Below are positions 5,013 to 43,451 of a stretch of DNA of 48,581 nt, piece after piece. Each line of letters opens with the position of its first letter. Within the stretch, counting starts at the first letter, position 1. The DNA lies in assembly GCA_020049515.1 (NCBI GenBank), contig JAIFKQ010000030.1:1-48581 (forward strand). The letters run 5' to 3'. A program made the position numbers and the translations under genes. The notes beneath the pieces are model-generated. The model was given only the letters and a program-made list of their open reading frames with translations. It was not told the DNA's origin and searched no databases. The DNA comes from Paludibacter sp. Its GTDB lineage: Bacteria > Bacteroidota > Bacteroidia > Bacteroidales > Paludibacteraceae.

Positions 5013-5064
5013 TTTAAGTTTGAAAAGCTCCTATTAATATTAACTTTGGTTTTACAACACTTAT

Positions 5065-5814
5065 ATGATAAAAAAAACTCAATTGCTTCTGATGTTTGTG
5101 GCTTTACTGTCATTTTCATCATGTTACAATTATAAAAACTTACGATTATTGCAAGAAAATAATCATTCGTTGCCCGAATATCCTAAAAATGAATATTCAG
5201 ATTATCGTATTAATATTAATGATGAAATAATATATCGGCTTATCACTTCCGATGAAACCATTTCAAAATTAATTTCTCCAGAAAATGGGGGAGGTAATAT
5301 GCAAAACCAAATATCTTATCGCGTTTTTCCTGATGGTACAATAGATTTGCCTTTTCTAAACAATATTGCTATTGCAGGTTTAACTCTCAGTGAGGCTTCG
5401 CTAGAAGTAGAAAAGCGTTTTAAGGAATTGATACCCGATGCAGTAATCAAATTAAGTCTTTCTAATAAAACATTTACGGTATTTGGCGATGCTGGTTCAG
5501 GAATATTTCCAATTTACAAAGAAAAACTAACCATTTTTCAAGCATTATCCATGTCGGGTGATTTTAACGAATCGAGTGATAGAAAACATGTACGCATTAT
5601 TCGTGAATCGGATAAAGGTATTAATATCATAGAGTTTGATGTTCGTCCTAAAAGTATAATAGACTCTAAATACTATTATATTTACCCTAATGATATAATA
5701 TATATTAGAAGGAACTTTTCAAGTTTCTACAAAGTGAATAATTATTCCGCACTATTAGGCGTAGTAACTTTCTCTATGTCGTTATTGGTGACCGTTTTGA
5801 ATTACAACAAATAA
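5065..5814 (+). CDS. Polysaccharide export (OPX, Wza-like) lipoprotein, tandem paralog
   Basis: LLSFSSCYNYKNLRLLQENN; DYRININDEIIYRLIT; FPDGTIDLPFLNNIAIAGLTLSEASLEVEKRF; same architecture as 4203..5012. Confidence 0.92.
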   Translation: MIKKTQLLLMFVALLSFSSCYNYKNLRLLQENNHSLPEYPKNEYSDYRININDEIIYRLITSDETISKLISPENGGGNMQNQISYRVFPDGTIDLPFLNNIAIAGLTLSEASLEVEKRFKELIPDAVIKLSLSNKTFTVFGDAGSGIFPIYKEKLTIFQALSMSGDFNESSDRKHVRIIRESDKGINIIEFDVRPKSIIDSKYYYIYPNDIIYIRRNFSSFYKVNNYSALLGVVTFSMSLLVTVLNYNK

Positions 5815-5846
5815 GCAACTAAATAAAACTCCAAATATCAGATACA

Positions 5847-19902: not shown

Positions 19903-20724
19903 ATGAAATATATGAAACAAATAATAGGCTTTTTGGCAATTTTCAGTATGCTTCTATTCATATCATGTTCAGAAGTGAAAAATATTGCTTATCTCCAAAA
20001 AAGTGAAAAATCAAAAAACATTGCCATTGCACAAAATCAATCTACTGCTTTTTACAACATGCGTATAAAGCCTAAAGACATTTTGAGCATTACTGTGGTA
20101 TCATCAGAGCCCGAAGCTTCAAAGCATTACAATTTAACCGTACCTGAAATTGGGGATCAAAATATGGCAGTTAGTTTATATTCTCAGCCTAGTTTGCAAA
20201 CCTACATTGTGGATAACGATGGAAATATACACTTCCCTGTTTTAGGAATACTAAAAATTAGCTCACTCACTTGTAGTGAATTAGAAGCAATGCTGCAAAA
20301 AAAAATGGCATCGTCTTTTAGTACAGAGCGTCCAATAATCACCATTCGTATAATAAATTATGTAGTAAATATTTTGGGTGAAGTTTCCAAACCAGGCAGA
20401 TACACAACTCAGAATGAACGATTAACGATATTTGAGGCGCTAGCCAATGCGGGTGATTTAACCATATATGGACGGCGGGAAAATGTAAAAATACTACGCG
20501 AAAATGCCAACGGTGTAAAAACAATCATAAACGTGAATTTAAATGATGAAAACATCATCAATTCTGAAGGGTATTTTCTGGAACAAAACGATGTGGTGTA
20601 TGTAGAGCCTAATAAAACAAAATCGAAGGATTCTAAAGTTGGAACAATTGATAACCTCAGTGTTTCAGCCATGTATATACTAATTTCAATTACCAGTCTT
20701 GTTGTCACTTTGCTTAAAAAATAA
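19903..20724 (+). CDS. Polysaccharide export (OPX, Wza-like) lipoprotein (third in window)
   Basis: LFISCSEVKNIAYLQKS lipobox; MRIKPKDILSITVVSSEP; VDNDGNIHFPVLGILKISSLTCSELEAML; LGEVSKPGRYTTQNERLTIFEALANAGDLTIYG. Confidence 0.94.
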   Translation: MKYMKQIIGFLAIFSMLLFISCSEVKNIAYLQKSEKSKNIAIAQNQSTAFYNMRIKPKDILSITVVSSEPEASKHYNLTVPEIGDQNMAVSLYSQPSLQTYIVDNDGNIHFPVLGILKISSLTCSELEAMLQKKMASSFSTERPIITIRIINYVVNILGEVSKPGRYTTQNERLTIFEALANAGDLTIYGRRENVKILRENANGVKTIINVNLNDENIINSEGYFLEQNDVVYVEPNKTKSKDSKVGTIDNLSVSAMYILISITSLVVTLLKK

Positions 20725-20733
20725 TATAATATA

Positions 20734-23100
20734 GTGAAACTTATGAATAATTACACCGACTCTGAAGAAATTTACGAAAAACCAATTGATGTAGTTGGTC
20801 AATTTCTTAAATATGTATTGAACTGGAAATGGTTTTTGTTATCTATGATAGTAAGTATAGGTATTTCAGTGATTTATCTAAAACTTTCAACAGCAATTTA
20901 CGAAGTTAAAACAACTGTATTACTTAAAGATGATAAAAAAGGAGGTGGAATTCCAGAACTGAATGTGTTGAAAGAAATCGGGGTGATAGATGTGAAAAAT
21001 AATGTAGATAACGAACTGGAAGTATTAAAAACAGTGGCGCTTGCCGAACGCGTTATTCGGGATTTAAAACTTTATGTAGGATATGAGAAAATAGGATATT
21101 TCAAAAATGACATTTTATATGGAAGTAATTGTCCCATAAGTATTTCGCTATCTGATGCAGTACTTAGTAATATGAAAAACAACATTGAATTTGAAGTAAA
21201 TATGCATCCACGAGGAGCATTAATATTTACGGGAACTTACTACGATAATGAATATAAAATAAAAGTACCTCCAACTGAAAATGAAGTTATGCTGCCCTTT
21301 GGTAGGGTTTATTTCAAGGTTGGCGATTTTAAACCAATTGAAAGTATGGCCATAAAAGTTACAATACAAAACCCAGCAGAAGTGGCAGAAACGATGTTGA
21401 AAAATATAACGATGGAACTAACGACGAAAAATACATCTGTAGTGAATATTGTGTTAACTACTTCGAGTATTCAGCTTGGAAAAGACTTTTTGGAACGATT
21501 AATAGAGGAGTACAACAATGAAGATGTTAATGAACAGCGACTTATGGCTGCTAATACTGCCGGATTTATAGATAATCGACTTATACAATTAACAAAAGAG
21601 CTGAATGATGTAGAATCGCAAGTAGAGAATTATAAACAAGAACAAGGTTTGACAAGCATTAACTCGGAGGCCAACATGTATATACAACAAACTGGGGCTT
21701 ATGAACAAAAACTGCTTGAAGTGGAAACTCAATTGGCCATTGTAACTGATATTGACGAATATATTCACAAAAAAGAGAACCGATTACAATTACTTCCAAC
21801 TAATACAGGCATTAAAAGTGAAAGTTTAAGTACCTTAATATCAGAATACAACAAATTATTACTTGAACGCAGGCGCTTGTCACGGATTGCATCCAACTCC
21901 AATCAAGCAATGTTAACATTAAATGAGAAAATTGAATCTATGATTAGTAGCATTTGGTCAACCGTTCGGAGCGAAAGAGGAAGTTGGGAAATAGCAAGGC
22001 AAGATTTACTTGGAAAAAACCGGCAAAATACGGTTCGAATTCAAGCTATTCCTCGCCAAGAAAGAGAATATACAGAAATAAAACGGCAACAAAATATCAA
22101 GGAAGCCCTGTTTTTATATCTGCTACAGAAAAAAGAAGAAAATTATGTGAAAATATCTATGATTGAACCAAAATCTAAAATGATAGACAAAGCGAGAAGT
22201 GATGGTAATCCTATTTCGCCCAAGAAGTCATTAGTTCTATTGTTAGCCTTCGTGTTAGGATTGGTGCTACCAATAATAGGCATAAATATATATGATTTAC
22301 TGCGGTATGAAATAGAAAATAAGGAGGAGTTGGAGAAACTTTCAATCGTTCCAGTATTGGGTGAAATACTGAAAAGTTCACATTTAACCAATGTTGTTAT
22401 TCAAGAAAAAAACACAGACAGTTTTTCAGAAATGATTCGTCTGCTGCGTACAAATTTATTATTTATACTTGATAACAAAGAAAAGAAAGTTATCAATATA
22501 TTATCGAGCAGCCAAGGGGAAGGAAAGACATTTACAACTATAAATTTGGGTTTAAGTTTGGCGCTATTAGATAAAAAAGTATTGATAATTGGGTTGGATA
22601 TTCGCAAACCTAAACTTGGAGAATACATGGGATTAGAAAATGAGCAGGGCATAACTTTGTTTTTGTCGGGTAATTTATCGCAGAAAAAACTCATAAAACC
22701 TTCTGGAATCCACCCAAATTTATCTATTATAACAGCAGGACCAACACCTCCAAATCCAAATGAGTTATTGGCTAAACCACTGCTGGACAACCTAATGACA
22801 GAACTCCGCGATGAGTACGATTATATAATTTTGGATACGGCTCCAGTGGGATTAGTATCTGACAGTTTAGTTATCAATCGGTTTGCCGACGTTAGTTTAT
22901 ATATTGTAAGGGTGGCATTTACACATAAAAAAGACGTAGAAAATGCTACTATCCTTTACAATAGCAAAAAAATAAACAACATGTATTTTGTACTTAATGG
23001 TTCCGAAGAAAATAGAAATACATATCGGTATGGTTACGGCAAAAAAAACAGATATGGATATGGAAATGAATCAGAAAAAGCGCCAAAAAACAAGAAATAA
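20734..23100 (+). CDS. Wzc-like polysaccharide co-polymerase / BY-kinase (second in window)
   Basis: Wzz N-terminus; Walker A SSSQGEGKTFT, A' VLIIGLDIRKPKLGEY, Walker B EYDYIILDTAPVGLVSD; tyrosine-rich tail YRYGYGKKNRYGYG. Confidence 0.95.
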   Translation: MKLMNNYTDSEEIYEKPIDVVGQFLKYVLNWKWFLLSMIVSIGISVIYLKLSTAIYEVKTTVLLKDDKKGGGIPELNVLKEIGVIDVKNNVDNELEVLKTVALAERVIRDLKLYVGYEKIGYFKNDILYGSNCPISISLSDAVLSNMKNNIEFEVNMHPRGALIFTGTYYDNEYKIKVPPTENEVMLPFGRVYFKVGDFKPIESMAIKVTIQNPAEVAETMLKNITMELTTKNTSVVNIVLTTSSIQLGKDFLERLIEEYNNEDVNEQRLMAANTAGFIDNRLIQLTKELNDVESQVENYKQEQGLTSINSEANMYIQQTGAYEQKLLEVETQLAIVTDIDEYIHKKENRLQLLPTNTGIKSESLSTLISEYNKLLLERRRLSRIASNSNQAMLTLNEKIESMISSIWSTVRSERGSWEIARQDLLGKNRQNTVRIQAIPRQEREYTEIKRQQNIKEALFLYLLQKKEENYVKISMIEPKSKMIDKARSDGNPISPKKSLVLLLAFVLGLVLPIIGINIYDLLRYEIENKEELEKLSIVPVLGEILKSSHLTNVVIQEKNTDSFSEMIRLLRTNLLFILDNKEKKVINILSSSQGEGKTFTTINLGLSLALLDKKVLIIGLDIRKPKLGEYMGLENEQGITLFLSGNLSQKKLIKPSGIHPNLSIITAGPTPPNPNELLAKPLLDNLMTELRDEYDYIILDTAPVGLVSDSLVINRFADVSLYIVRVAFTHKKDVENATILYNSKKINNMYFVLNGSEENRNTYRYGYGKKNRYGYGNESEKAPKNKK

Positions 23101-29443: not shown

Positions 29444-30445
29444 ATGAATTCAATTGAATGTAGAAAAGGTTTACCCACAGAGTATGAGTTATTTTTGATA
29501 AATAAATACAATTCATTTATTACTACTTGTAGATATATAGAAGTTTATTATCCATTATACGATATAAACTATATACTAATTTTTGAAGATGATAAATTGG
29601 ACGAATTGATAGTATTTGGTAATAAGGGGAACACTTCAATCTGTTTTAATTCATTGGTGTATATAAAACAAAATGTTGTGGAGGAGTTTCTAAAAATAAT
29701 ATTTAAAAAATTTCAATTTATAAATAAAATAAAAATTGAGGCATCTTACTTTCATTATAATTTAAAAAAAACACTTTTATTATCAAAATCAGATAATCAA
29801 ATATTGAATTTGCCATCATCCATTGAGAGTTATTATTTAGAACTTGGGTATCATACGCGAAAAAATATCAGAAATCGAAAAGTGAGGTTGTTGAGAGACT
29901 ACAAAAACGTAAATTTCATTACCAAGTATGGCAATGAAATAGAAGAGAAGATAGTAGATAAAATAATTCAATTGAATACAAACAGAATGATTCAGAAAGG
30001 AAAAATACCTGGCATAGACCAAAATTATAGAGACAATATTTATAGATACTCACAGCATTATGGATGTGTGAGTTACATCGAAATAGATGGCATTTTGGTA
30101 GCAGGTTGCATTGCTACAATACTTAACAAAGAGATATTTTTGCATGTAATTGCCCATGATAATAATTTATCAAAATACAATGTAGGAGAAGTTTGCATCG
30201 TAAATTATATTGAATACTCGATTAATAAAGGAATGACAACATTTCAATTTTTATGGGGTGAAACAGAATTGAAAAAACGGTTTTTAGCAAAGTCGCATGT
30301 ATTATATTCATATTGCGTCTATCGAGCTTATTCACTGGATTTCATTTTAAAACTTATAAAAAGAATATTTTATGATTCAATAATTCAATTTAAAAATCTC
30401 ACTTTTTCAACAGATTTGAGAAAAGCGATAAAAAAGTTGTATTAA
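29444..30445 (+). CDS. GNAT/BioF2-like acyltransferase (PF13480-like), paralog A
   Basis: GLPTEYELFLINKYNSFITTCRYIEVYYP...HTRKNIRNRKVRLLRDYKNVNFITKYG...YIEIDGILVAGCIATILNKEIFLHVIAHDNNLSKYNVGE...FLWGETELKKRFLAK. Confidence 0.75.
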   Translation: MNSIECRKGLPTEYELFLINKYNSFITTCRYIEVYYPLYDINYILIFEDDKLDELIVFGNKGNTSICFNSLVYIKQNVVEEFLKIIFKKFQFINKIKIEASYFHYNLKKTLLLSKSDNQILNLPSSIESYYLELGYHTRKNIRNRKVRLLRDYKNVNFITKYGNEIEEKIVDKIIQLNTNRMIQKGKIPGIDQNYRDNIYRYSQHYGCVSYIEIDGILVAGCIATILNKEIFLHVIAHDNNLSKYNVGEVCIVNYIEYSINKGMTTFQFLWGETELKKRFLAKSHVLYSYCVYRAYSLDFILKLIKRIFYDSIIQFKNLTFSTDLRKAIKKLY

Positions 30446-30535
30446 AGGATATATTTACATAAATCATATTGCAAAAACTTTTTTGATTTGGAATTTTCTA
30501 AAAATTGAGATGAAAAATATAAAACAAACTACTAC

Positions 30536-31450
30536 ATGATTACGATTGAATATATCAAAGGTTTGCCAATTGTTCATGAAGCTTTTCTGATAGAAAAATA
30601 CGATTCGTTTTTTACAACTTGTGCTTATATTGATATATACTTTCCTTTTTACGACATCTATTACTTGCTTGTAAGAAAGGATACAATTATAATAGATATA
30701 TTGATTTTTGGAAACAAAAGCAAAGAATCAATTTGCTTTAACACATTAACTTCAATTAATCAAGATATTATTCTACAATGTAGCAAAAAAATATTTGAAG
30801 AACACAACTTAATTACAAAATTAAAAATCTCAGCTAATTACATCAAGTATAATTACAACAAATCAATACTAATTTCAATGTCCAAAAATTATGTTTTAGA
30901 ACTTCCCTCATCAATTGATACATATTATTTGGTACTTGGTAAAAGTACTCGAAAAAACATCAGAAATGACAAATCAAAACTACTTAGAGATTTTCCAAAT
31001 GTAAAATTTATTACTCTTTTGCCAAATGAGATCAATTCAACAATCATAAACAAAATAATGCAATTGAATAAGGATAGAATGAAGCATAAAGGGTTAATTT
31101 ATGGAAAAGACAAGTATGAAATGAAAAATACATATTTATATTCAAAGTATTATGGTTGTGTAACATACATAGAATTAGAAGGTGAAATTATTGCTGGAAA
31201 TATATCATATATAATAAATAAAAACATTTACGGACATGTGATAGCGCATGATAATAATTTTTCGAATTACAGTTTAGGTCGATTATGTCAATTAAATACT
31301 ATCCAATTTGCCATAGAAAATGGATTGAAAAATTTTCATTTTTTATGGGGAGAAAATGAGTATAAAATAAGATTAATGTCTAAACCACAACTAATATTTT
31401 CGTACTATATATTTCGGAAACAATCAATTGAATTCTTTTTAACAAATTAA
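30536..31450 (+). CDS. GNAT/BioF2-like acyltransferase paralog B, C-terminally truncated by a frameshift
   Basis: GLPIVHEAFLIEKYDSFFTTCAYIDIYFP...STRKNIRNDKSKLLRDFPNVKFIT...FLWGENEYKIRLMSKPQLIFSYYIFRKQS; stop at 31450, but the frame starting at 31438 reads FNKLKVSILRLLLNLRLSKYTLYLRNAIKIYRKKKLGNIDFGV* to 31569, matching the C-termini of paralogs C and D. Confidence 0.75.
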   Translation: MITIEYIKGLPIVHEAFLIEKYDSFFTTCAYIDIYFPFYDIYYLLVRKDTIIIDILIFGNKSKESICFNTLTSINQDIILQCSKKIFEEHNLITKLKISANYIKYNYNKSILISMSKNYVLELPSSIDTYYLVLGKSTRKNIRNDKSKLLRDFPNVKFITLLPNEINSTIINKIMQLNKDRMKHKGLIYGKDKYEMKNTYLYSKYYGCVTYIELEGEIIAGNISYIINKNIYGHVIAHDNNFSNYSLGRLCQLNTIQFAIENGLKNFHFLWGENEYKIRLMSKPQLIFSYYIFRKQSIEFFLTN

Positions 31451-31576
31451 AAGTTTCAATACTTAGGCTATTATTGAACCTAAGACTTTCGAAATACACG
31501 CTATATTTAAGGAATGCAATTAAGATATACCGAAAGAAAAAGTTGGGAAACATAGACTTTGGGGTTTAAAAAAAAA

Positions 31577-31720
31577 ATGATTCTGAATAACAATAATTTT
31601 GGCAATGATATTATTCTCGATCAAAACAAAACTTACAGCATTAACAATAATACACTTAGACAAATTATTAATACTAACAAAAAGAAATTTATATCTCATA
31701 AAGAAGAAATAAAACCATGA
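31577..31720 (+). CDS. Possible 47-aa small ORF overlapping the next start codon (ATGA)
   Basis: MILNNNNFGNDIILDQNKTYSINNNTLRQIINTNKKKFISHKEEIKP*; stop overlaps the ATG at 31717. No recognised family. Confidence 0.25.
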   Translation: MILNNNNFGNDIILDQNKTYSINNNTLRQIINTNKKKFISHKEEIKP

Positions 31721-32856
31721 AGAAAATCATAATTATACAATCTTCGCTGCCTCAATATAGAAAAGAGTTTTACATTTTACTTAAGAAGAAACTGGTAGAA
31801 CAAGATATTGAGTTACATGTAATTTATGGGAAAGCTTCAAGCACTAATAAACTGCGAAATGATGAAATAATACTTGATTGGGCAAAATACATTCAAAATA
31901 AATACTTCAAAATAGGTAATAAGGAATTATTGTGGCAACCGTACATTAGCCAATTAAAGGATAGTGATTTGGTGATAGTGGATGCAGCGAATAGGTTAAT
32001 TCTAAATTATTATTTAATAATTAGAAGAGCTTTTTCATCCTCAAAATTAGCTTTTTGGGATCATGGACGGAATTTACAGGAAGACATTGGAAGTCTTGGA
32101 AACAGATTTAAGTATCTGTATATCAATAAATGTGACTGGTGGTTTGGATATACAGCAGGTACAAAAAGGTTTTTATTATCAAAAAAATATCCTGAGAATA
32201 GAATCACAGTTGTGCAAAATACAATTGATACATTTAGCCTTATAAAGTATTACACTCATATAAAAACTAGAGAGATAAATGAGTTGAAATCGAAAATGGG
32301 CATACAAAACTGTAAAACAGCCATTTACTGCGGATCAATGTATGCAGGTAAGAATATTGATTTTATTATTGAAACTTGCCACGAAGTAAAAAAAAAGATA
32401 CCAGAATTTCATGTAATATTTATAGGTGCCGGCACTGAAGCCACTAAGGTAATGGAGGCAGCACTATCGTTTGATTGGATACATTATGTAGGTTCAAAAT
32501 TTGGAAATGAACGGGTAATATTTTTCAAAATTGCATCCATACAATTAATGCCCTATTATGTGGGACTTGGCATAGTAGATTCGTTTGCTATGGAAACTCC
32601 TATAATTACAACTTCAAATTCGTCGCATGGTCCTGAAATAGAATATCTTGAGAATGAAATAAATGGAATAATGACCGAGGATAGTTTACAGGAATACTCA
32701 AAATCTGTCATAGAAATCCTGAAAAACGGAAAATATCTTCAATTAATAAATGGTTGTAAAACAGCAGCTAAAAAATACTCTGTAGAGGCCATGGTCGAAA
32801 ATTTTAGCGCTGGTGTAGTCTCATGTCTTGAATTGGAAACTGAAAAACCAAGCTAA
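31717..32856 (+). CDS. Glycosyltransferase family 4-like
   Basis: KKIIIIQSSLPQYRKEFYILLKKKL, WDHGRNLQ, AIYCGSMYAGKNIDFIIETCHEVKKKIPEFHVIFIGAGTEA, LGIVDSFAMETPIITTSNSSHGPEIEYL. Confidence 0.88.
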   Translation: MKKIIIIQSSLPQYRKEFYILLKKKLVEQDIELHVIYGKASSTNKLRNDEIILDWAKYIQNKYFKIGNKELLWQPYISQLKDSDLVIVDAANRLILNYYLIIRRAFSSSKLAFWDHGRNLQEDIGSLGNRFKYLYINKCDWWFGYTAGTKRFLLSKKYPENRITVVQNTIDTFSLIKYYTHIKTREINELKSKMGIQNCKTAIYCGSMYAGKNIDFIIETCHEVKKKIPEFHVIFIGAGTEATKVMEAALSFDWIHYVGSKFGNERVIFFKIASIQLMPYYVGLGIVDSFAMETPIITTSNSSHGPEIEYLENEINGIMTEDSLQEYSKSVIEILKNGKYLQLINGCKTAAKKYSVEAMVENFSAGVVSCLELETEKPS

Positions 32857-32874
32857 CTATATATAAAAATAAAT

Positions 32875-33624
32875 ATGGAAAATACAGTAATTATAACTAC
32901 CAGCTGGGATGATGGGCATGTTTATGACTTAAGAATAGCCGAGTTATTAGAAAAATATCAGTTACAAGGGACATTTTATGTACCAATCAGAAACAGTGAA
33001 AATTCGGTCATGAAACCAACTTCGATGATTGAAATTGGAAAACGATTTGAAATTGGCGGTCATACCGTAAACCACAAATACCTGCAAAATTTGGGAGATG
33101 AAGAAGCTAGTTATGAAATACTTAACTGTAAATCTGTATTAGAAAATATACTCGAGAAAGAAATTTACGCATTTTGCTTTCCTGGAGGTAAATTCTCTAA
33201 TCGTGACGTTCATTTAGTCAAAAAAAATGGTTTTCTTTTTGGGCGAACTACAAGATTTTTTAACACTACATTGAATAATAAGTTTTTGATGAATACAACA
33301 GTACAATGTTATAATCATGATACTTATACACTTAATAAACATTGCCTAAAAAGAGCCTATTTTTCGCAATTGATAAAGTTTGGATTCTTTTTTGATTACA
33401 ATAAAAACTTTAGAAAATTGGCATCTGAAATTACTTCAAATATGATTCTAAATGGAGGTATTTTTCATATCTGGGGTCATTCTTGGGAAATAGACAAATT
33501 TGGATTGTGGTACGAATTGGAAGAAACTTTTAAAATGCTGTCTGACATTCCTAATGCCCTACATCTTAACAATTCTACAAGTTGGAAACTAAAAAAATCT
33601 TTTGCAGACATACAAAAAAAATAA
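32875..33624 (+). CDS. Polysaccharide deacetylase (NodB-like), no signal peptide
   Basis: TTSWDDGHVYDLRIAELLEKYQLQGTFYVP, IGGHTVNHKYL, AFCFPGGKFS, FHIWGHSWEID. Confidence 0.9.
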   Translation: MENTVIITTSWDDGHVYDLRIAELLEKYQLQGTFYVPIRNSENSVMKPTSMIEIGKRFEIGGHTVNHKYLQNLGDEEASYEILNCKSVLENILEKEIYAFCFPGGKFSNRDVHLVKKNGFLFGRTTRFFNTTLNNKFLMNTTVQCYNHDTYTLNKHCLKRAYFSQLIKFGFFFDYNKNFRKLASEITSNMILNGGIFHIWGHSWEIDKFGLWYELEETFKMLSDIPNALHLNNSTSWKLKKSFADIQKK

Positions 33625-33700
33625 TTAACATAGAACTATCCCAAAATAATAATACTAGTGAGCCAAAGCTTGAGAATACATTAACATTAGAAAACTAATT

Positions 33701-35545
33701 ATGAAAAAAAAAATCCTTTTTCTGCTTCATTTTCCACCACCTATCCATGGGTCATCTATAATGGGGCAAGAAATTAAAGAAAGTAATTATATAAATAATT
33801 CGTTTGATTGCAGATACATAAATATGCTTGTTAATCAAAACATTAATGAGTCTGGAAAAATTGGAATTATAAAAGGAATTCAATTTATTCCCACCCTATT
33901 TCAATTAATATCCGAAACCATAAAAAATAGACCAGATGTATGCTATTTGGCATTAACCACTACTGGAATAGGATTATATAAAGATGCTTTGGTGGTGGCT
34001 ATGTTACGTTTATTTGGTATAAAACGGGTTTATCATCTTCATAATAAAGGTATTATTGAGAATAGTAAAATTAAGTTTAACAATTTTATCTATCGGTATA
34101 TTTTTAAAGATGCAGATATCATTCTATTATCCAACCATTTATACAATGATATTGAAGCTTATGTGCCCACATCCAGGGTGCATATTTGTCCAAATGGAAT
34201 TGGTAACTCCGATTATTCAGTTATAAAAACATATCGGTTTAAGCATGAGGAACCAGTACAATTATTGTTTTTCTCTAATTTGATTGAATCAAAAGGTGTT
34301 TATGTGTTGCTGGAAGCATGTAAGTTACTGATAAACAGAAACAATAATTTTATTTGTAGGTTTGCAGGAAGCATTGGGAATGTGAGTGAACAAGACTTTA
34401 ATTTGAAAGTACAACAGTTTGGGCTAGAAAATAATGTAAGATATTTAGGACCGCAATATGAAAATGACAAAGAAATAGTCTTTCAAAATGCAGATATTTT
34501 TGTTCATCCTACTTATAATGATTGCTTTCCGTTGGTTTTGATAGAAGCCATGCAATATTCGTTACCCATAGTTTCAACGGATGAAGGCGGAATACCCGAA
34601 ATGCTTACAAACGGTGTATCAGGATTTCTTGTTCCACAAAAAGATGCAGAAAAACTGTCGGAAAAAATAGAATTATTAATACAAAATCCTACGCTGCGCT
34701 TAAAAATGGGCAAAGCAGGTAGATTAAAATATGAAGCAGAATTTACAAAGGCGACATTTGAAAATAAAATGCATGCTATTTTACAGAATATTATTTCAAT
34801 CGAAAATAATTCAATGAAAATAATAGAAACAATTGGCTTCAATGTATTTTCTGATAATTTAGCTACAATACCTATTCAGGGCGAAAAGTGTAGGGTGATA
34901 AATACCATTAGCCCAAACTCTTATGGTATTTCTACCAAGGATTTAGAATTTGAAAATGCCCTAAAATCTTCCGACTTTCTGGTATTAGATGGAGTTTATT
35001 TTGGCTTATCATCTTTGATTATAAATAAAAAAAATATAAAAAAAAATCAGGGTCCAGATGTGTTTTATCATTTTATAGAAAGAATTAACACACAAAAAGG
35101 AAGTGCATTTTTTTTTGGATCTACAGAAAACACACTTCAAAAAATTAAATCGCGAGCTAGGATTGAATATCCAAATATCGATGTGAATTTTTTCTCTCCG
35201 CCATTTAAAACAGAGTTTACGGATTTAGAAAACGAGCTAATAATAAAAAGAATAAATGCCGTAAAACCAGATATTTTATTTGTAGGAATGACCTGTCCCA
35301 AACAAGAGAAGTGGGCATTAAAGCATCGTGACAAGTTAAATGTAGGATTAATTATATGTATTGGCAATGTTTTCGATTGGTTTGCAGGTACCCAAAAGCC
35401 TATTCCAGCATTTTGGTATAAAATAAGACTTGGGTGGCTTGCTCGCATTTTTATGCGTCCTGAAATTTTCAAAAGAAATATTGGTAATCAAATGGTTTTT
35501 TTATGGCACGTAATATTGATATTTTTAAAAATCAAAAAGGTATGA
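33701..35545 (+). CDS. Fused glycosyltransferase: N-terminal GT4 + C-terminal WecG/TagA/CpsF (GT26)
   Basis: GT4: FPPPIHGSSIMGQ, FFSNLIESKGVYVLLEAC, FVHPTYNDCFPLVLIEAMQYSLPIVSTDEGGIPEM. GT26: SDFLVLDGVYFGLSSLI, GSAFFFGSTENTLQKI, KPDILFVGMTCPKQEKWALKHRDKLNVGLIICIGNVFDWFAGTQKPIPAFWYKIRLGWLARIFMRPE. Confidence 0.93.
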   Translation: MKKKILFLLHFPPPIHGSSIMGQEIKESNYINNSFDCRYINMLVNQNINESGKIGIIKGIQFIPTLFQLISETIKNRPDVCYLALTTTGIGLYKDALVVAMLRLFGIKRVYHLHNKGIIENSKIKFNNFIYRYIFKDADIILLSNHLYNDIEAYVPTSRVHICPNGIGNSDYSVIKTYRFKHEEPVQLLFFSNLIESKGVYVLLEACKLLINRNNNFICRFAGSIGNVSEQDFNLKVQQFGLENNVRYLGPQYENDKEIVFQNADIFVHPTYNDCFPLVLIEAMQYSLPIVSTDEGGIPEMLTNGVSGFLVPQKDAEKLSEKIELLIQNPTLRLKMGKAGRLKYEAEFTKATFENKMHAILQNIISIENNSMKIIETIGFNVFSDNLATIPIQGEKCRVINTISPNSYGISTKDLEFENALKSSDFLVLDGVYFGLSSLIINKKNIKKNQGPDVFYHFIERINTQKGSAFFFGSTENTLQKIKSRARIEYPNIDVNFFSPPFKTEFTDLENELIIKRINAVKPDILFVGMTCPKQEKWALKHRDKLNVGLIICIGNVFDWFAGTQKPIPAFWYKIRLGWLARIFMRPEIFKRNIGNQMVFLWHVILIFLKIKKV

Positions 35546-36558
35546 TAACTGGAGCAGTAATAGGATTGGGTAAAATGGGAATTTCACATGCCGCTATAAT
35601 TGGTGCAAATCCACTGGTCAATTTTGTGGCAGTTTGTGATAGTTCTACTTTAGTATTGGATGCTTTTAAGAAATTTAGCACGGTAAAAACATACCGAAAT
35701 TTCAAAGAAATGATTGATAATGAGTCCCTAGACTTTGTATTGGTGGCTACTCCCACTCGATTTCATTTTCCAATGGTAAAATATGCGCTTGAAAATGGAT
35801 TACATGTATTTTGCGAGAAGCCATTTAACTTAAATTCAAAAGACGGCGAAGAGCTAGTACAATTGGCCAACAGCAAGTCGTTAATCAATCAAGTAGGTTA
35901 TCACAACCAATTTATTGGAACTTTTAGAGAACTCAAAAGATTGCTACAAGCCGATGTTTTGGGAGATTTGGTGCATTTTATGGGCGAGGCTTATGGTGCA
36001 GTAGTTACAAAAGAAAAGGGAAAAACTTGGAGGTCGAATGCTGAAGAAGGTGGAGGATGTTTGTACGATTACGCATCACATGTGTTAAATTTAATTCAGG
36101 AAATCATAGGTAATCCGGTTCATTCTGCTGGCACAAAACTAAAAAGCATCTATTCTAATGATGTTGAAGATGCGGTTTATAGCACATTAAGTTTAGATAA
36201 TGGTTTGAGCGGACTGCTTTCGGTAAACTGGAGCGACAATACATATCGAAAAATGTCCACTACGCTAACCGTAATTGGCAAAAACGGCAAAATTAGTTGC
36301 GATGCCACTGAAATAAAAATATATCTAAAAGAATCGAATAAAAAAGAGGGTTTAGACAAAGGATGGACTATCAAATACATTACGGATTTTGCCCTTCCAG
36401 TAAATTTCTATTTGCGTGGTGAAGAATATAGTGCTCAAATAGAACACTTTGTAAATTGCATTATCACAAAAAAACAGGGAAGTTACAATACCTTTGAACA
36501 AGGGAACAATACAGATAAAGTGATAGAAATGATAATTGCTAATTCTAAAAAAAATTGA
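35542..36558 (+). CDS. Gfo/Idh/MocA family oxidoreductase
   Basis: MITGAVIGLGKMGISHAAIIGANPLVNFVAVCD, VLVATPTRFHFPMVKYALENGLHVFCEKPF. The ATG at 35542 overlaps the upstream stop (ATGA). Confidence 0.93.
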   Translation: MITGAVIGLGKMGISHAAIIGANPLVNFVAVCDSSTLVLDAFKKFSTVKTYRNFKEMIDNESLDFVLVATPTRFHFPMVKYALENGLHVFCEKPFNLNSKDGEELVQLANSKSLINQVGYHNQFIGTFRELKRLLQADVLGDLVHFMGEAYGAVVTKEKGKTWRSNAEEGGGCLYDYASHVLNLIQEIIGNPVHSAGTKLKSIYSNDVEDAVYSTLSLDNGLSGLLSVNWSDNTYRKMSTTLTVIGKNGKISCDATEIKIYLKESNKKEGLDKGWTIKYITDFALPVNFYLRGEEYSAQIEHFVNCIITKKQGSYNTFEQGNNTDKVIEMIIANSKKN

Positions 36559-36564
36559 AACATC

Positions 36565-37419
36565 ATGGATAAAATACTATTTGGCGACAATCAGTTTTTT
36601 GCGGTAAATCATGTTTCGGATGAAAAATCACGAGCTCAATCAATTCAATTTAAGGAAGATGCAGCCATTATTAAAATACTCGACCAAGCTATAGACGTGG
36701 GAATTAACACGTTTATGTGTACCACGCACGAGAGAATTGCAAATATATGTAATTACATTAGGTTAAATCCGAAAAAATACCAAAATTTTAATATCTATCC
36801 GTGCATGCCTTATGCTCACAAATATGCAAACGCTGTTACTGAACTTGGAATTATGGGTACTATCAAAAATTATATTCCAGGTAGTATTTTTGGAACCTTT
36901 GCAAAAGGTGGTTTTGCACTTATGAGCAAAGATTTTATTAAGCTCATGGAACTTTTGATTGATGCCGAAATGAAAATGTTTAAAGACCTAAATACCCCAG
37001 TTATTTTTATCCAAAATGTTATTGTTGATATGATATTGGGGTTAAAAATGTATGACATTTTTAAATCTTACGATCAATATATCCGCACAAAATACAACGC
37101 TGAGCCTGGATATATTACCATGAATATGCCCCTGTTGCTAGATAGTTTGAATTCGGTGGGAATTATGAATCCAATTATCTGTAGCTCAATCAATAAAATA
37201 GGCTTTAGAATGAGTGGCGGAGTAGAAATTTACGAGAAATACCTCTCCGAAAAGCAATTTCGACCAATTGCCATGCAAGTGCTTGCTTCTGGTGCTTTAC
37301 ATCCAAGCGAAGCAATTGAATACTTGGGAAAATTTCCAAATATTGAATCTGTTTTATTTGGCGCCTCAACAAAAAGTCACATACAGGAAACCAAAATGCT
37401 TATAAATAAGCACTTATAA
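36565..37419 (+). CDS. Aldo/keto reductase-like TIM-barrel protein
   Basis: ILFGDNQF start, ILDQAIDVGINTFMCTT; C-terminus PIAMQVLASGALHPSEAIEYLGKFPNIESVLFGASTKSHIQETKMLI resembles the AKR C-terminal region. Confidence 0.55.
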   Translation: MDKILFGDNQFFAVNHVSDEKSRAQSIQFKEDAAIIKILDQAIDVGINTFMCTTHERIANICNYIRLNPKKYQNFNIYPCMPYAHKYANAVTELGIMGTIKNYIPGSIFGTFAKGGFALMSKDFIKLMELLIDAEMKMFKDLNTPVIFIQNVIVDMILGLKMYDIFKSYDQYIRTKYNAEPGYITMNMPLLLDSLNSVGIMNPIICSSINKIGFRMSGGVEIYEKYLSEKQFRPIAMQVLASGALHPSEAIEYLGKFPNIESVLFGASTKSHIQETKMLINKHL

Positions 37420-38016
37420 AATAAAAAACTAAACAATGGAAATTATAAAAATAAATTCTTTATAGGGTTTAATCCATCTATTTATAGTAACCACACTATA
37501 AAAAACCACATTTAAGTAGTGTTTCTTTGCAACCTAATCAGCACCCCCAACCCTCTGAAGGGGTAAATGAGAGTGCACAGATTCAGAAATTTTAACTGGA
37601 AAGAATGTGTGTTTTGTTAATTGATAAAATATAGTTTGTTTTTGAAACGAATTTAAATACTAAGGAGTATTTAAGCAGGAAAACTTGTCGAAATAAGTGT
37701 TAAGTAGATAAGTTTCTTTGCAATTTTAAATATTTATAAAAAGTAGAAAATATGAAATAATTGAGCGAAAATGGCAAAATTAAATTTTAAATTAAATATC
37801 AATCAAAACAAACAATTAGCGACTGGTAACATTTAACACATAAGACCTTATTAAATTGCTGAAAATTGGTACTTAAAAATGAAACTTTTGTGCTCAAAAG
37901 ATATATTGGGAAAGTTTACTTTGTGAAAAATAATAAAGTAGAATTAAATAAAGGACGATAATGAGGTAATCAATAATACAAAAAAAAATTCACCTTAATA
38001 AAAAAAAACAAGTACT

Positions 38017-38742
38017 ATGGAACTTAAATCATTTATTTATTGGAAGTTGGTATATCCAATCATACTTAGATTGGATAAATTTCGTGGTTTGGATTTTTTG
38101 TCGGAAATGTCGCCCGAAGCCCTACAATTCAATCTCAAACGCGCACATGGATATGGTCCGTCTGGCAAAAATTTTTTGAAAGAGGTGCTAAGTGACTTCA
38201 ATATTAGTTCTACCGACTCCATAATAGATGTAGGATGCGGCAAAGGAAGCGCAATGAAGTATTTACTAGATTTCCCTTTTGAAAGGGTAGATGGGATTGA
38301 GCTTTCTGGCCTTATTGCCGATATTGCTACCCAAAATTTCAAAAAATTAAACGAAAATAGATGCCGAGTGTTCACGGGAGATGCTGGATATTTTAACCAA
38401 TATGATGATTATAATTATATCTATTTTTACAATCCATTTCCACCAATAGTTATGGCAGAAGTAATTGAAAATCTGAAATTTTCATTGCAACGAATTGACA
38501 GAGAAATGGTTATAATTTACATGAGCCCTACCTGCAACCATATTATTGCAGAAAGTGGTATATTTACACAAGTAGGCGCATATTATAAAAACGATGCCTG
38601 GATAACAGTTTATAGCAATAGAAGCATAGACAAATCGGTATTATCATATAATAAAAAAATTCATCGAAGTATTGAAGGAACTCCTTTGAACGATGCGCTT
38701 AAAGTGTATTTGCAAAATTACGTATTAAAAGCATACAAATAG
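38017..38742 (+). CDS. Class I SAM-dependent methyltransferase, tandem copy 1
   Basis: SIIDVGCGKGSAMKYLLDFPFERVDGIELSGLIADIATQNFK...RVFTGDAGYF...YIYFYNPFPPIVMAEVIENL. Confidence 0.82.
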   Translation: MELKSFIYWKLVYPIILRLDKFRGLDFLSEMSPEALQFNLKRAHGYGPSGKNFLKEVLSDFNISSTDSIIDVGCGKGSAMKYLLDFPFERVDGIELSGLIADIATQNFKKLNENRCRVFTGDAGYFNQYDDYNYIYFYNPFPPIVMAEVIENLKFSLQRIDREMVIIYMSPTCNHIIAESGIFTQVGAYYKNDAWITVYSNRSIDKSVLSYNKKIHRSIEGTPLNDALKVYLQNYVLKAYK

Positions 38743-38827
38743 AAAAATGAACGAATAAAAGCTTGATTTTATAATGTGAACTTGATGTAAATATTCAGCA
38801 CAATTCAATTAATCAAAAAAAAATAAT

Positions 38828-39565
38828 ATGGATTACAAAGCATTAGTTTATTGGAAGTTAGTGTACCCAATCACTATAAAAATGGATAGTTATCAAGGCT
38901 TAGATTTTTTGCCCAAAATCACTGCCAAAGCTGTAGGTTTAGATATAAAGCGTTCATTTGGATATTCTCCATCGCATAAAAGATTTCTGATAGAGCTGCT
39001 CAATGATTTTAGTATTACGTCCAATGATACCATTATTGATGTGGGTTGTGGCAAAGGAAGTGCAATGCGCACCATGTTAAAATACACATTTTCCAAAGTG
39101 GATGGAATTGAGCTATCTAGTATAATTGCCAATATAGCTATTCAAAATTTTAAAAGATTGAAGGTAAATAGATGTAGCGTTTTTACAGGCGATGCTGGTC
39201 AATTTAAAATATACAACGACTACAATTATGTCTATTTTTTCAATCCATTTCCAGCTGTTGTAATGAAAGAAGTAATTGAAAACTTAAAAAAATCGGCACA
39301 ACTAGTTGACAGGGAAATAATTATAATATACATGAGTCCAACCTGTACCGATGTGATTGAAAAAAGTGGGGTATTTGAACTTAGAGGAATATATAAAAGA
39401 ACAGGCGCTTGGGTCACTGTTTACTCTAACCGGAGCTTAAAAAATTCTACACTTTCATCAAATAAGAAAATGATTCCTTGCACAGAAAGCTCCGACATCA
39501 AAAAGGAATTACAACTATACTTACAAAATTTTATTCAACCCGATTATATAGATCGTATCAAATAA
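38828..39565 (+). CDS. Class I SAM-dependent methyltransferase, tandem copy 2
   Basis: TIIDVGCGKGSAMRTMLKYTFSKVDGIELSSIIANIAIQNFKRLKVNRCSVFTGDAGQF...YVYFFNPFPAVVMKEVIENL; collinear with copy 1. Confidence 0.82.
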   Translation: MDYKALVYWKLVYPITIKMDSYQGLDFLPKITAKAVGLDIKRSFGYSPSHKRFLIELLNDFSITSNDTIIDVGCGKGSAMRTMLKYTFSKVDGIELSSIIANIAIQNFKRLKVNRCSVFTGDAGQFKIYNDYNYVYFFNPFPAVVMKEVIENLKKSAQLVDREIIIIYMSPTCTDVIEKSGVFELRGIYKRTGAWVTVYSNRSLKNSTLSSNKKMIPCTESSDIKKELQLYLQNFIQPDYIDRIK

Positions 39566-39897
39566 TTTATTCTTAAAATTTCATGTAAAAAAATTAGCTA
39601 ATAAGTTATGAGTCCAAGCCGATAAGTGATTTTTGATAAAAAAAGTGCTAAGTAGATAACTTACAGATAAATACCTGAGAGATATTGAGGTCGCAATTAA
39701 ATATTTATTTTGAATATCAATTCTTTGCATCCCGATAAGTATCGAGATTGCGCTCCCTATTCTCGAGATGTTTCATTAGCGTTCTCTCGTTTCTGGGGAT
39801 GTTCTAATAGCATTCAAAAAAAAATAAATTATCGGGGCCAACTCAGTTATTAGTGTTATAATTTACGGATTATCTTATAAATAATTAAATTGAATTT

Positions 39898-40917
39898 ATG
39901 ATAACAATAGAACATTTTGAGGGTTTACCAACAGAACATGAATCATTTTTAATAAACAGATACAATTCATTTATAACTACTTGTAGGTACATTGAAATTT
40001 ATCATCCCGATTATTACATTTATTATATGCTCGTTTACGAAGACAGTGAACTAGTTGATTTATTGATATTTGGTAATAAAGGAAATACGGCAAGATGCTT
40101 TAATGCACTTGTCAATATCAATCAGAATACCATTTCGGGATGCATAAATTTACTTTTTATACAGTCGCCATTTATACAAAAGGTGATGATTGATGCATCG
40201 TTAACGCCGTATAAATTAAAGTATTCATTTCTAATAACCAAATCAGAAGATTATGTTATTAATCTTCCCACAAATATCAACGATTATTATAAAGAATTGG
40301 GACTGAGTACCAGAAGAAATTTAAAAAGTCGCAAAAATAAATTATTAAAAAATTTCAACTCTGTAAATTATTTCACTAAATATAACTGTGATATCAATGA
40401 CGAAATAATTGACAAAATAGTTCAAATGAACTATAACAGAATGAAATACAAAGGAGTAGTTCCGCACATCGACAACAAATATAAAAATAATATTTTCAAG
40501 TACTCTCAACACTACGGTTGCGCTTCATATTTAGAGCTGGATGGTGAAATGGTAGCTGGATGTATAGCTACCATTTTAAACAAAGATATTTTTTTACATG
40601 TATTTTCTCACGATAACAATTTTTCTAAATACAATGTAGGTGAAAGCTGTGTATTTAACCTAATAACAACGGCCATTGAGAATGACTTGTCAACCTTTCA
40701 TTTCCTGTGGGGAAGCAGCGATTTAAAATCAAGATTTCAAGTAAAACCGACAATTTTGTTTTCAAGTTTTGTTTACAGAGGATACTCATTAGACTTCTTT
40801 ACAAACAAATTATCTACTTTTTTTTTAACGGCTTTCAGCCAGTTTAAACTTTCAGCATTTTCCAAACCATTAAAAAAAACCGTGAAATTTTACCGTAAAA
40901 TAAATTCCAAAGTGTAA
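39898..40917 (+). CDS. GNAT/BioF2-like acyltransferase (PF13480-like), paralog C
   Basis: GLPTEHESFLINRYNSFITTCRYIEIYHP...STRRNLKSRKNKLLKNFNSVNYFTKYN...YLELDGEMVAGCIATILNKDIFLHVFSHDNNFSKYNVGES...FLWGSSDLKSRFQVKP. Confidence 0.75.
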   Translation: MITIEHFEGLPTEHESFLINRYNSFITTCRYIEIYHPDYYIYYMLVYEDSELVDLLIFGNKGNTARCFNALVNINQNTISGCINLLFIQSPFIQKVMIDASLTPYKLKYSFLITKSEDYVINLPTNINDYYKELGLSTRRNLKSRKNKLLKNFNSVNYFTKYNCDINDEIIDKIVQMNYNRMKYKGVVPHIDNKYKNNIFKYSQHYGCASYLELDGEMVAGCIATILNKDIFLHVFSHDNNFSKYNVGESCVFNLITTAIENDLSTFHFLWGSSDLKSRFQVKPTILFSSFVYRGYSLDFFTNKLSTFFLTAFSQFKLSAFSKPLKKTVKFYRKINSKV

Positions 40918-41032
40918 AATTAAAAAGCTTAATTACTTGGAGTAATGATTTATACAAGAAATCTCTTTTACATATAATTAAAAAAAAAAGTACCATATAT
41001 AGGTAATTAGTCAACAACTACTGTTAATAAAT

Positions 41033-42073
41033 TTGAGTATGACTACAATCAAATGTTTGAATGGCTTGCCTTTAGAATATGAATCATTTCTGATTAGTAA
41101 ATACGAGTCGTATTTGACCACATGCCGATATATTGAAATATATTATCCTACTTACATCATAGATTTCATGCTTGTATATAATGAAAATAGCTTAATTGAA
41201 TTATTAATATTTGGCACCAATGGAAGCACTTCAAAATGTTTCAATTCATTTGCCAGTATAGATCCAACTATAATTTCAGAATGCATCAATATTTATTTTG
41301 AAAATCATCCGTCTATACCAATGATAAAAGTTGATGCATTAAGTAAAGAGTACAATTTAAAAAAAGCTATTTTACATGATAAAGCCAATGAGTATGTCAT
41401 TAATTTATCTTCAACAGTTGACGAATATTATCTACAACTAGGTCGTAGCACTCGAAAATCTGTACGAAATCATAAATCGAAACTGATTAGAGATTATCCA
41501 AATGTAAACTTTATTACTAAGTATGGGATAGAAATTGAAGAGAAAGTTATTGATAAAATTATAGAATTGAATATTGCCCGAATGAAATATAAAGGAATAA
41601 TGCCAGCGAAAGACCTAAATGAGGCCAAGCGAATATTCAGATATTGTAAATATTATGGCATTGTAACTTACATTGAAATTGATAATATAATAGTAGCTGG
41701 AGATATTGCGTATATTCTGGATAAACGTATGTTTACTGAAGTGATAGGACATGACAATGATTTTTCGGCGTACAATTTGGGCGAAGTATGTATGTTTCAG
41801 CTTATTGAGGCAGCTATAAATGGTGGATTTGAAACATTGTATATGTCGTGGGGCTATAATGAGTATAAAAAGCGCTTATTGGCAAAGCCGCATATTTTGT
41901 ATTCCTATTCAATATATCGAACATATTCTTTGGCTTACATTCTTAAAAGTATTAATGCATTGGTAGTTCTAAATATTACAAGGTTTAGACTCTCGAAATA
42001 CTCAATGCCAATAAGGAATGCTATTAAGTATTACAGAAAAAGAAAATGGTCGTTAGTATTAAGTAGAAATTAA
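41033..42073 (+). CDS. GNAT/BioF2-like acyltransferase (PF13480-like), paralog D
   Basis: GLPLEYESFLISKYESYLTTCRYIEIYYP...STRKSVRNHKSKLIRDYPNVNFITKYG...YIEIDNIIVAGDIAYILDKRMFTEVIGHDNDFSAYNLGE...MSWGYNEYKKRLLAKP. Confidence 0.75.
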   Translation: MSMTTIKCLNGLPLEYESFLISKYESYLTTCRYIEIYYPTYIIDFMLVYNENSLIELLIFGTNGSTSKCFNSFASIDPTIISECINIYFENHPSIPMIKVDALSKEYNLKKAILHDKANEYVINLSSTVDEYYLQLGRSTRKSVRNHKSKLIRDYPNVNFITKYGIEIEEKVIDKIIELNIARMKYKGIMPAKDLNEAKRIFRYCKYYGIVTYIEIDNIIVAGDIAYILDKRMFTEVIGHDNDFSAYNLGEVCMFQLIEAAINGGFETLYMSWGYNEYKKRLLAKPHILYSYSIYRTYSLAYILKSINALVVLNITRFRLSKYSMPIRNAIKYYRKRKWSLVLSRN

Positions 42074-42140: not shown

Positions 42141-43451
42141 ATGAAAAGTTTTACAAGAGTAAATTATTACAAATTGGCAATAATATTATTTTTTAGTTTT
42201 AATGCTCATGGTCAAGATAACATTATAACACAAGAAAATAAGAAGGTGGATGATGCTATTTTGGAAGTAATTGATTCGATAAAAATATGTAAATGGAAAT
42301 ATGACGCTCAATCATGTATAAATTTCTCGTTTGATGACAATCTACTGTCACAAACAAAAATTTCAAAGATATTTGACCAATACGGATTCAAGTCCACCTA
42401 TTTTATCATACCGAATAGTATGTACATTGATAGCCTAAAAGATATGGCGGCACGAGGTCATGAAATTGGTAGCCATACATATTCGCACGTTTCACTTGGG
42501 GGTATTGATAGTTTAGAGATTGATTTTCAGACACGTAAATCGAAAGAAATGATTGAAAATTGTATAGGTATAAAGTGCCTTAGCTTTGCAGATCCGTACC
42601 ACGAAACGACGGAAATGAGCAAAAATATCGTTTTTAGCTACTATTCTTATGCTCGAAATTACTCAAAGTACATAAATCACAGTTACTATCCTCTTTTTTC
42701 TTCTTCCACATTACAGCAGCTTACAAATTATATATCCAAAGGAATATCAAAAGGGGAAATATTGTTAATTGCAGGACACGGATTAGAAGGTGATGGTTAC
42801 AGCCCTATAAGTGAACACTTTTTACGGGAGATTCTAAATTTAGTAAATGATTACAATTATAATGGAGTTTTGTGGGTAACTACTATAAAAGAAGGAATTC
42901 AATATGAGAATCTTTATCATGAATTAATGTTAGAAAAAAAATTTACAAACGACACTCTAATATTAAGTTTTAAAAACTTCAATAAATTGAAATACAAAAA
43001 TGAAGATAAGGCAATGATTAGCATAAAAATACCATTCAATAGCAGTTTCGAAATAACACGGGTAACACAAAATATAGAAAAAAAAATGCATGATGATAAA
43101 TATATTTTCACAATGGACTTAAAAAAAGACACTTCTATGGTGTTGATAATGAAGAACTCAAGTCCATTGACTAAAAATATAATTGATGAGTTTAAGACTA
43201 CAAATTTATTTACAATTTACCCAAATCCTATCCACAAAGTATTAAGAATTCAAGACTCAAGAATAATGGGAAATGGTGAAATTTTAAGCATTGAGATATT
43301 TAACACAGATGGAAAACTTATTCAAAAGCAAATAACAAATTTTTCTGAAATTGATGTTTCACGTCTCAAAAAGGGACTATACTTTGTGAAAAAAAATATG
43401 CAAATAGACTCAACGATCAAGGTTTACATGGCAAAATTTTTAAAGTTCTAA
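42141..43451 (+). CDS. Secreted NodB-like polysaccharide deacetylase with T9SS type A C-terminal sorting domain
   Basis: Signal peptide; NFSFDDNLLSQTKISKIFDQYGFKSTYFIIP, GHEIGSHTYSH, CLSFADPYHE, LLIAGHGLEGDG; CTD NLFTIYPNPIHKVLRIQD...IEIFNTDGKLIQKQ...VSRLKKGLYFVKK. Confidence 0.88.
   Translation: MKSFTRVNYYKLAIILFFSFNAHGQDNIITQENKKVDDAILEVIDSIKICKWKYDAQSCINFSFDDNLLSQTKISKIFDQYGFKSTYFIIPNSMYIDSLKDMAARGHEIGSHTYSHVSLGGIDSLEIDFQTRKSKEMIENCIGIKCLSFADPYHETTEMSKNIVFSYYSYARNYSKYINHSYYPLFSSSTLQQLTNYISKGISKGEILLIAGHGLEGDGYSPISEHFLREILNLVNDYNYNGVLWVTTIKEGIQYENLYHELMLEKKFTNDTLILSFKNFNKLKYKNEDKAMISIKIPFNSSFEITRVTQNIEKKMHDDKYIFTMDLKKDTSMVLIMKNSSPLTKNIIDEFKTTNLFTIYPNPIHKVLRIQDSRIMGNGEILSIEIFNTDGKLIQKQITNFSEIDVSRLKKGLYFVKKNMQIDSTIKVYMAKFLKF

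Follow-up and report, generated by a model that had tools for sequence, protein, structure and literature searches.

Why does one bacterial polysaccharide locus carry four genes of a single transferase family, and what might their products do? The window analysed here is a 48,581-nucleotide stretch of DNA from Paludibacter sp. (contig JAIFKQ010000030.1 of assembly GCA_020049515.1), in which four PF13480 genes, hereinafter designated A, B, C, and D, lie within one polysaccharide locus (Table 1). An earlier note on this DNA had described four such open reading frames and placed them in a polysaccharide operon; the frames are present at the coordinates given there, and the placement is supported. 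The draft genome (2.80 Mb, only 83% complete) yielded no fifth PF13480 copy.

Table 1. Features of the four-transferase locus, in window positions.
Feature	Position	Strand	Basis
Copy A, 333-aa PF13480 transferase of the FemX-like double-GNAT type	29444..30445	+	PF13480; AlphaFold model; PDB folds Sbb17/FemX
Copy B, same PF13480 family as A, 304 aa, C-terminal tail lost via frameshift	30536..31450	+	PF13480, 46.5 bits
Remnant of the basic C-terminal tail of copy B, out of frame, LRLSKYTLYLRNAIKIYRKKK	31432..31569	+	61% identity to D tail, 23 aa
GT4-type glycosyltransferase	31717..32856	+	PF13692/PF00534
Cytoplasmic-type NodB-like polysaccharide deacetylase	32875..33624	+	PF01522, 59.3 bits; CE4 motifs
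GT4 glycosyltransferase fused to WecG/TagA/CpsF glycosyltransferase	33701..35545	+	PF00534, PF03808
Gfo/Idh/MocA oxidoreductase	35503..36558	+	PF01408
Protein without Pfam/NCBIfam match; aldo/keto-reductase-like by eye only	36565..37419	+	
SAM methyltransferase, tandem copy 1	38017..38742	+	PF13649, 27.1 bits; 56% identity to copy 2
SAM methyltransferase, tandem copy 2	38828..39565	+	PF13649, 31.2 bits
Copy C, 339-aa PF13480 transferase of the FemX-like double-GNAT type	39898..40917	+	PF13480; alignment
Copy D, PF13480 transferase of the FemX-like double-GNAT type, 344 aa (most likely start)	41039..42073	+	PF13480; AlphaFold model; PDB folds
Secreted deacetylase with type IX secretion (T9SS) sorting tail	42141..43451	+	PF01522, 57 bits; PF18962, 46.3 bits

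A–D are paralogues, as the earlier note had claimed. Specifically, pairwise identity is 44–53% over 300–340 aa, far above chance, and in the HMM search that it proposed all four exceed the PF13480 cut-off of 22 bits (30.4, 46.5, 29.1, and 35.5 bits for A, B, C, and D, respectively). A and C, judged closest by eye, are indeed the top pair (53%). The motifs listed as common to the four hold only approximately: C has INRY and STRRNLKS, while D has ESY, STRKSVRN, and SWG. Copy D most likely starts at ATG 41039, where A, B, and C align, rather than at TTG 41033 (346 aa). None of A–D matches an NCBIfam family at E ≤ 0.01, including the XrtA/PEP-CTERM-associated FemAB family. A, C, and D end in a basic tail with net charges of +5, +8, and +11, which is helical in the AlphaFold models of A and D; net charges of +5 to +12 are found in 24 of the 25 copies in the genus.

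Structure prediction, also proposed earlier, gave a double-GNAT fold for both A (pLDDT 90.6) and D (pLDDT 92.5). The top PDB matches of the two models are Sbb17/Sba18 and FemX (aminoacyl-tRNA-dependent), with TM scores of 0.58–0.64; MprF-type lipid aminoacyltransferases are also matched. From these fold matches, the aminoacylation that had been raised as one option appears to be a serious one. Sbb17 and Sba18, the top match, attach an amino acid to a small molecule that contains a sugar in streptothricin-type pathways, but they belong to natural-product pathways and are only about 10% identical to A–D. A search of a viral fold library also returned a phage FemAB homologue, which has no bearing on A–D.

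The relationship to FemX can also be seen in sequence profiles. The genus family alone has no direct sequence link to any solved structure; the link appears only with a wider Bacteroidota profile (A, B, and D included), which matches S. aureus FemX with an E value of 7e-8, while no other PDB match is better than 0.08. The FemX match ends at residue 291–292, short of Lys305. At the motif level, an invariant Lys277 (numbering of A) in a Tyr/Leu-Lys motif resembles DhpH-C Phe328-Lys329, the analogue of FemX Lys305. All 25 genus members match PF13480 at E ≤ 0.001. The sole FemAB-type match is FemAB_like (PF04339), hit by seven of the 25, with A (14.1 bits) and B (22.4 bits) both below the cut-off of 27; no member matches the Pfam FemAB family proper.

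The predicted fold does not fix the donor, since acetyl-CoA tandem GNATs match too. A–D could be acyl-CoA- or acyl-ACP-dependent N- or O-acyltransferases that re-acylate deacetylated sugars with acetyl, hydroxybutyryl, or similar groups, following a NodB/NodA-like logic. This alternative is a tentative but real possibility: PF13480 carries an acetyltransferase annotation, and VipF, a clavulanic-acid tandem GNAT, and a glucosamine N-acetyltransferase are among the fold matches. However, these fit less well than FemX-type enzymes, with TM scores of 0.40–0.51 (0.40–0.47 for CoA-dependent VipF); the canonical acetyl-CoA motif Q/R-x-x-G-x-G/A is missing at the expected place in all 25 genus copies, and A–D have no match to Pfam NodA.

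Two deacetylases had been proposed to work with the transferases. One of them, 32875, does lie inside the block; it has intact CE4 motifs (SWDDG and HTVNH), no signal peptide was seen, and among NCBIfam equivalogs it scores 21.2 bits against NodB (cut-off 240), with HfsH not listed. The other, 42141, lies outside the block and is of a secreted type, with a signal-like N-terminal segment, motifs FSFDD and HTYSH, and 38.7 bits against NCBIfam HfsH (cut-off 400). Because of its signal-peptide-like N-terminus and T9SS tail, 42141 should act outside the cell; its participation in a shared cytoplasmic step is unsupported, and it probably serves a different, extracellular step. Another T9SS-tailed secreted protein is encoded nearby, by gene 16913.

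Across the genus, 25 PF13480 copies are present in 10 of 48 Paludibacter genomes. In all nine polysaccharide loci of the genus the transferases lie among glycosyltransferase genes, and arrays of two to four copies occur in eight of these nine. Consistent with the claimed link between transferases and a NodB-type deacetylase, a NodB-like cytoplasmic-type deacetylase is found within 5 kb of the transferases in nine of nine polysaccharide loci, and in none of the five lone-copy loci elsewhere in the genus.

Phylogenetic analysis indicates that the tandem pairs are old. In four genomes, the downstream array members group in a single clade (support 99/99), and their upstream partners in three of those four group in a separate one (100/99); tandem partners therefore come from different old clades and are not fresh duplicates. 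Sister pairs {A,B} (AU p 0.015) and {C,D} (AU p 0.036) are rejected, while neither {A,C} (AU p 0.24) nor {B,D} (AU p 0.21) is. On the tree, the array is compatible with the earlier suggestion that an ancestral unit, here AB, may have been duplicated. Recent local duplication of all four, {A,B,C,D}, is rejected (AU p 0.0009).

Copy B is not full length in this assembly, which carries an indel near 31432–31440. Its reading frame stops at 31448–31450, the basic C-terminal tail is absent, and the family tail resumes in another frame, where it matches the D tail with an E value of 1.6e-7. Since B lacks the tail, it is not certain that there are four working copies. The tail of a weakly supported relative of B at another locus (L040) is likewise lost through a frameshift. 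These two frameshifts, and a single-contig genome (G016) that copes with one copy only, would suit an explanation in which the copies are redundant or decaying, with one or two doing the work and the rest drifting, B first. We consider this unlikely, as 23 of the 25 genus copies are intact and the pairs belong to the two old, well-supported clades.

Two known systems bear on the role of A–D. FemX, FemA, and FemB make successive additions in peptidoglycan bridges. W. viridescens FemX and S. aureus FemX/FemA share the fold of A–D (TM about 0.6), with the profile link to S. aureus FemX, and they too are several paralogues that may act in succession, as A–D may; they differ in being only about 10–13% identical and in having a peptidoglycan acceptor rather than the presumed polysaccharide. 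Nearest to A–D is the holdfast system of Caulobacter crescentus, which comprises HfsK, its paralogues CC2278 and CC1244, and the deacetylase HfsH. Both the activity of HfsK and its association with the membrane depend on its C-terminal extension, HfsK and CC2278 do not cross-complement, and HfsK has been assigned with HfsH to one holdfast pathway (PMC5362036). The adhesion phenotype of HfsK is strong. HfsK and A–D have in common a FemX-like double GNAT, an exopolysaccharide context, and a C-terminal extension (absent in B), and both systems comprise several paralogues, non-interchangeable in Caulobacter, and are linked to a polysaccharide deacetylase. Unlike A–D, the three Caulobacter paralogues are ~30% identical and do not form a one-operon array, and unlike Caulobacter HfsH, 32875 and 42141 fall outside NCBI's HfsH family. 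HfsK is a c-di-GMP-binding protein, and A–D are compared with it on fold, tail, and context only. Literature searches yielded nothing useful on PF13480 in polysaccharide, on the Myxococcus spore coat, or on Paludibacter exopolysaccharide.

We put about even confidence in the reading that A–D are FemX/HfsK-like double-GNATs that decorate a lipid-linked exopolysaccharide repeat after N-deacetylation. Specifically, 32875 would strip N-acetyl groups from amino sugars on the cytoplasmic side, and A–D would then load the freed amines with an amino acid, for which aminoacyl-tRNA is the likelier donor, or with another acyl group. The acceptor would be the lipid-linked repeat unit at the cytoplasmic membrane, where the basic C-terminal helix may keep the transferases, and separate copies may serve separate sugars or successive additions, like the Fem enzymes. 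That the target of A–D is a lipid or a protein, be it an anchor or a T9SS cargo, is very improbable: although T9SS-tailed secreted proteins are encoded nearby (42141 and 16913) and MprF-type enzymes are among the fold matches, the transferases keep company with glycosyltransferases in nine genus loci, A–D have no MprF-like membrane flippase domain, and the HfsK evidence points to a glycan.

If A–D as glycan-decorating transferases were tRNA-dependent, the charged tRNAs of translation would also supply biofilm polysaccharide. A bolder proposal, to which we give a small chance, is that FemX-like arrays in polysaccharide loci of Bacteroidota build short amino-acid side chains, step by step, on deacetylated exopolysaccharide sugars, each member being specific for a step or an amino acid; such chains would be to a glycan what the FemX-FemA-FemB bridge is to peptidoglycan. 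Old, maintained tandem pairs beside a NodB-like deacetylase, together with the Bacteroidota arrays, offer a natural system for HfsK-like GNAT chemistry, one that bears on aminoacyl-tRNA dependence and on paralogues acting at different positions.

PF13480 arrays of two to four genes are also present in other Bacteroidota. The earlier statement that such proteins are usually single in exopolysaccharide loci is wrong, given these arrays and those in the genus; small FemX-like arrays are fairly common across Bacteroidota, and the Paludibacter locus is a good example and no oddity. Outside the genus, arrays are associated with deacetylases overall (Fisher p 0.006), but the association is lost within the subset of loci that contain GT2 (p 0.44), and beyond the genus the link largely tracks polysaccharide context. 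Four loci from other Bacteroidota (L080, L082, L083, and L088) resemble that of Paludibacter: each is a polysaccharide locus that carries three to four PF13480 genes and, next to them, a PF01522-type deacetylase. They differ in their distant sequences, about 10–23% identical to D among those aligned, and one PF13480 protein of L082 carries a fused DegT aminotransferase-like domain.

The four GNAT genes that the earlier note described in the window are present at 29444, 30536, 39898 and 41033 (A, B, C and D), each above the PF13480 cut-off; the start of D is probably the ATG at 41039. They are true paralogues, with pairwise identity of 44–53% across 300–340 aa, and the motifs that the note listed as common to them are right in outline, not exact in detail. 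A search of the draft genome to which the window belongs (2.80 Mb, 83% complete) gave no PF13480 gene elsewhere, and A–D match no NCBIfam model. A–D are a genuine array of a known kind, namely HfsK/FemX-like polysaccharide modifiers; what merits attention is how old the tandem pairs are, that arrays recur across the phylum, and that the fold points towards aminoacyl transfer.

A and D are both predicted with confidence to adopt a double-GNAT fold. Among solved structures, Sbb17/Sba18 and W. viridescens FemX match them best; MprF/PGS and FemA follow lower in the ranking, and these matches come before most acetyl-CoA GNATs. The family (A–D and relatives, 25 sequences in Paludibacter) has by itself no PDB match by sequence; a profile including distant Bacteroidota members matches S. 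aureus FemX (lipid II:glycine glycyltransferase) with E 7e-8 and gives a weak match to W. viridescens FemX. None of the 25 copies has the usual acetyl-CoA loop motif at its position. Lys277 (A numbering) is invariant, and its surrounding motif resembles that around Lys329 of DhpH-C, which is essential and the analogue of FemX Lys305 (PMC12945691). The fold, the profile, the absent CoA motif and Lys277 favour aminoacyl-tRNA as the predicted donor, none of them being proof.

A FemAB-like gene and a deacetylase also occur together in XrtA/PEP-CTERM loci. Caulobacter HfsK is a FemX-like GNAT whose membrane association and activity require a C-terminal extension; it has two paralogues, and HfsK and CC2278 do not cross-complement. 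The authors suggest that HfsK and the deacetylase HfsH may share one pathway, HfsK possibly acylating amines exposed by HfsH (PMC5362036). A deacetylase likewise accompanies a BioF2-like gene in an Actinoplanes polysaccharide cluster (PMC13390465). A, C and D share the HfsK layout, including a basic tail, which the models of A and D show as a helix. B has no such tail: it is shortened by a stop at 31448–31450, ahead of the family's basic tail, which is encoded in a different frame (31432–31569). This truncation may be a genuine frameshift or an assembly error; because HfsK needs its extension, B may by analogy be impaired. A copy in genome G062 (L040:10437–11414, minus strand) has likewise lost its basic tail by frameshift, at a different point. 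The two copies group weakly in the tree (91/74), and in both the missing tail could mean either that a membrane tether was really lost or that the assembly is wrong.

The family occurs in 10 of 48 genus genomes. Nine carry it in polysaccharide-locus groups, with one copy (G016), two (six genomes), three (G007) or four (the window's genome). A NodB-like deacetylase lies within 5 kb of all nine groups (within 2.4 kb in eight), whereas the five other copies, a single monophyletic group, are solitary at other chromosomal sites with neither glycosyltransferase nor deacetylase as neighbours; thus, the polysaccharide-locus type is the one that accompanies the deacetylase. Four of these five share a chromosomal neighbourhood. 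Five genus loci have a GT-A/GNT-I-like glycosyltransferase, absent from the window, in the interval that separates the deacetylase from the GNAT pair.

In the tree of 25 sequences, the downstream pair members of G063, G066, G028 and G018 group together as a clade (99/99), and their upstream partners from three of these genomes make up another (100/99), so the tandem arrangement of two types is old. A is nearer to copies of G007 (65%) and G071 (62%) than to any of the other three in the window. In AU tests, A–D as a single clade (p 0.0009), A+B sisterhood (p 0.015) and C+D sisterhood (p 0.036) are rejected, while A+C (p 0.24) and B+D (p 0.21) are tolerated. The doubling of an ancestral two-gene unit, proposed earlier, is compatible with these tests.

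Close relatives are scarce beyond the genus: one tandem pair, from a different family of the same order. Arrays of PF13480 genes in general are no rarity, however: the domain occurs in 112 of 148 sampled Bacteroidota genomes, several of which have 2–4 genes clustered within ~12 kb, with more in other sampled genomes. L080 and L088 have four copies each and L082 and L083 three each, all with a deacetylase close by, which abuts or nearly abuts the array in L082, L083 and L088. Among loci outside the genus, picked by score and not independent by descent, a deacetylase lies within 3 kb of 5/10 arrays versus 6/61 single copies (Fisher p 0.006). In GT2-containing loci the counts are 5/10 versus 6/18 (p 0.44), so the link mostly reflects the polysaccharide-locus setting. 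In L082 (7167–9884), a 905-aa protein combines the array's first GNAT with a DegT-type aminotransferase-like domain and lies directly against the deacetylase, which physically ties amino-sugar making to acylation; L083:6845–9580 is its counterpart by size and place.

Features of the window and of related Paludibacter loci
Feature	Position	Setting
Export/co-polymerase module	19903, 20734	upstream of A–D
Wzx-like flippase	23100	upstream of A–D
Glycosyltransferases	24542, 26968, 28369	upstream of A–D
418-aa protein without assigned family	25654	upstream of A–D
GT4 enzyme		between pairs A/B and C/D
NodB-like deacetylase, no visible signal peptide	32875	between pairs A/B and C/D
GT4-WecG fusion		between pairs A/B and C/D
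Gfo/Idh/MocA oxidoreductase		between pairs A/B and C/D
Protein without assigned family		between pairs A/B and C/D
Two tandem methyltransferases	38017-39565	between pairs A/B and C/D
Secreted deacetylase with type IX sorting tail	42141	after D
BspA-type repeat protein		after D
Lone-copy GNAT type	L042:9526-10626, L043:9619-10665, L044:6358-7425, L046:5541-6611, L047:9368-10465	outside polysaccharide loci
~306-aa GT-A/GNT-I-like enzyme, weak Pfam matches only	L036:7816-8736, L037:8039-8959, L039:7506-8426, L041:8517-9434, L045:8564-9514	between GNAT pair and deacetylase

Both deacetylases of the window have intact CE4 motifs. The tandem methyltransferases are 56% identical to each other, a second duplicated modifying enzyme in the block. 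Just upstream of the polysaccharide operon, 13635–15629 and 16913–19270 encode paralogous beta-helix proteins (57% identical), one of which bears a type IX sorting tail. The window has two distinct Wza/Wzc-like export modules (4203–8240 and 19903–23100), which are 24–29% identical.
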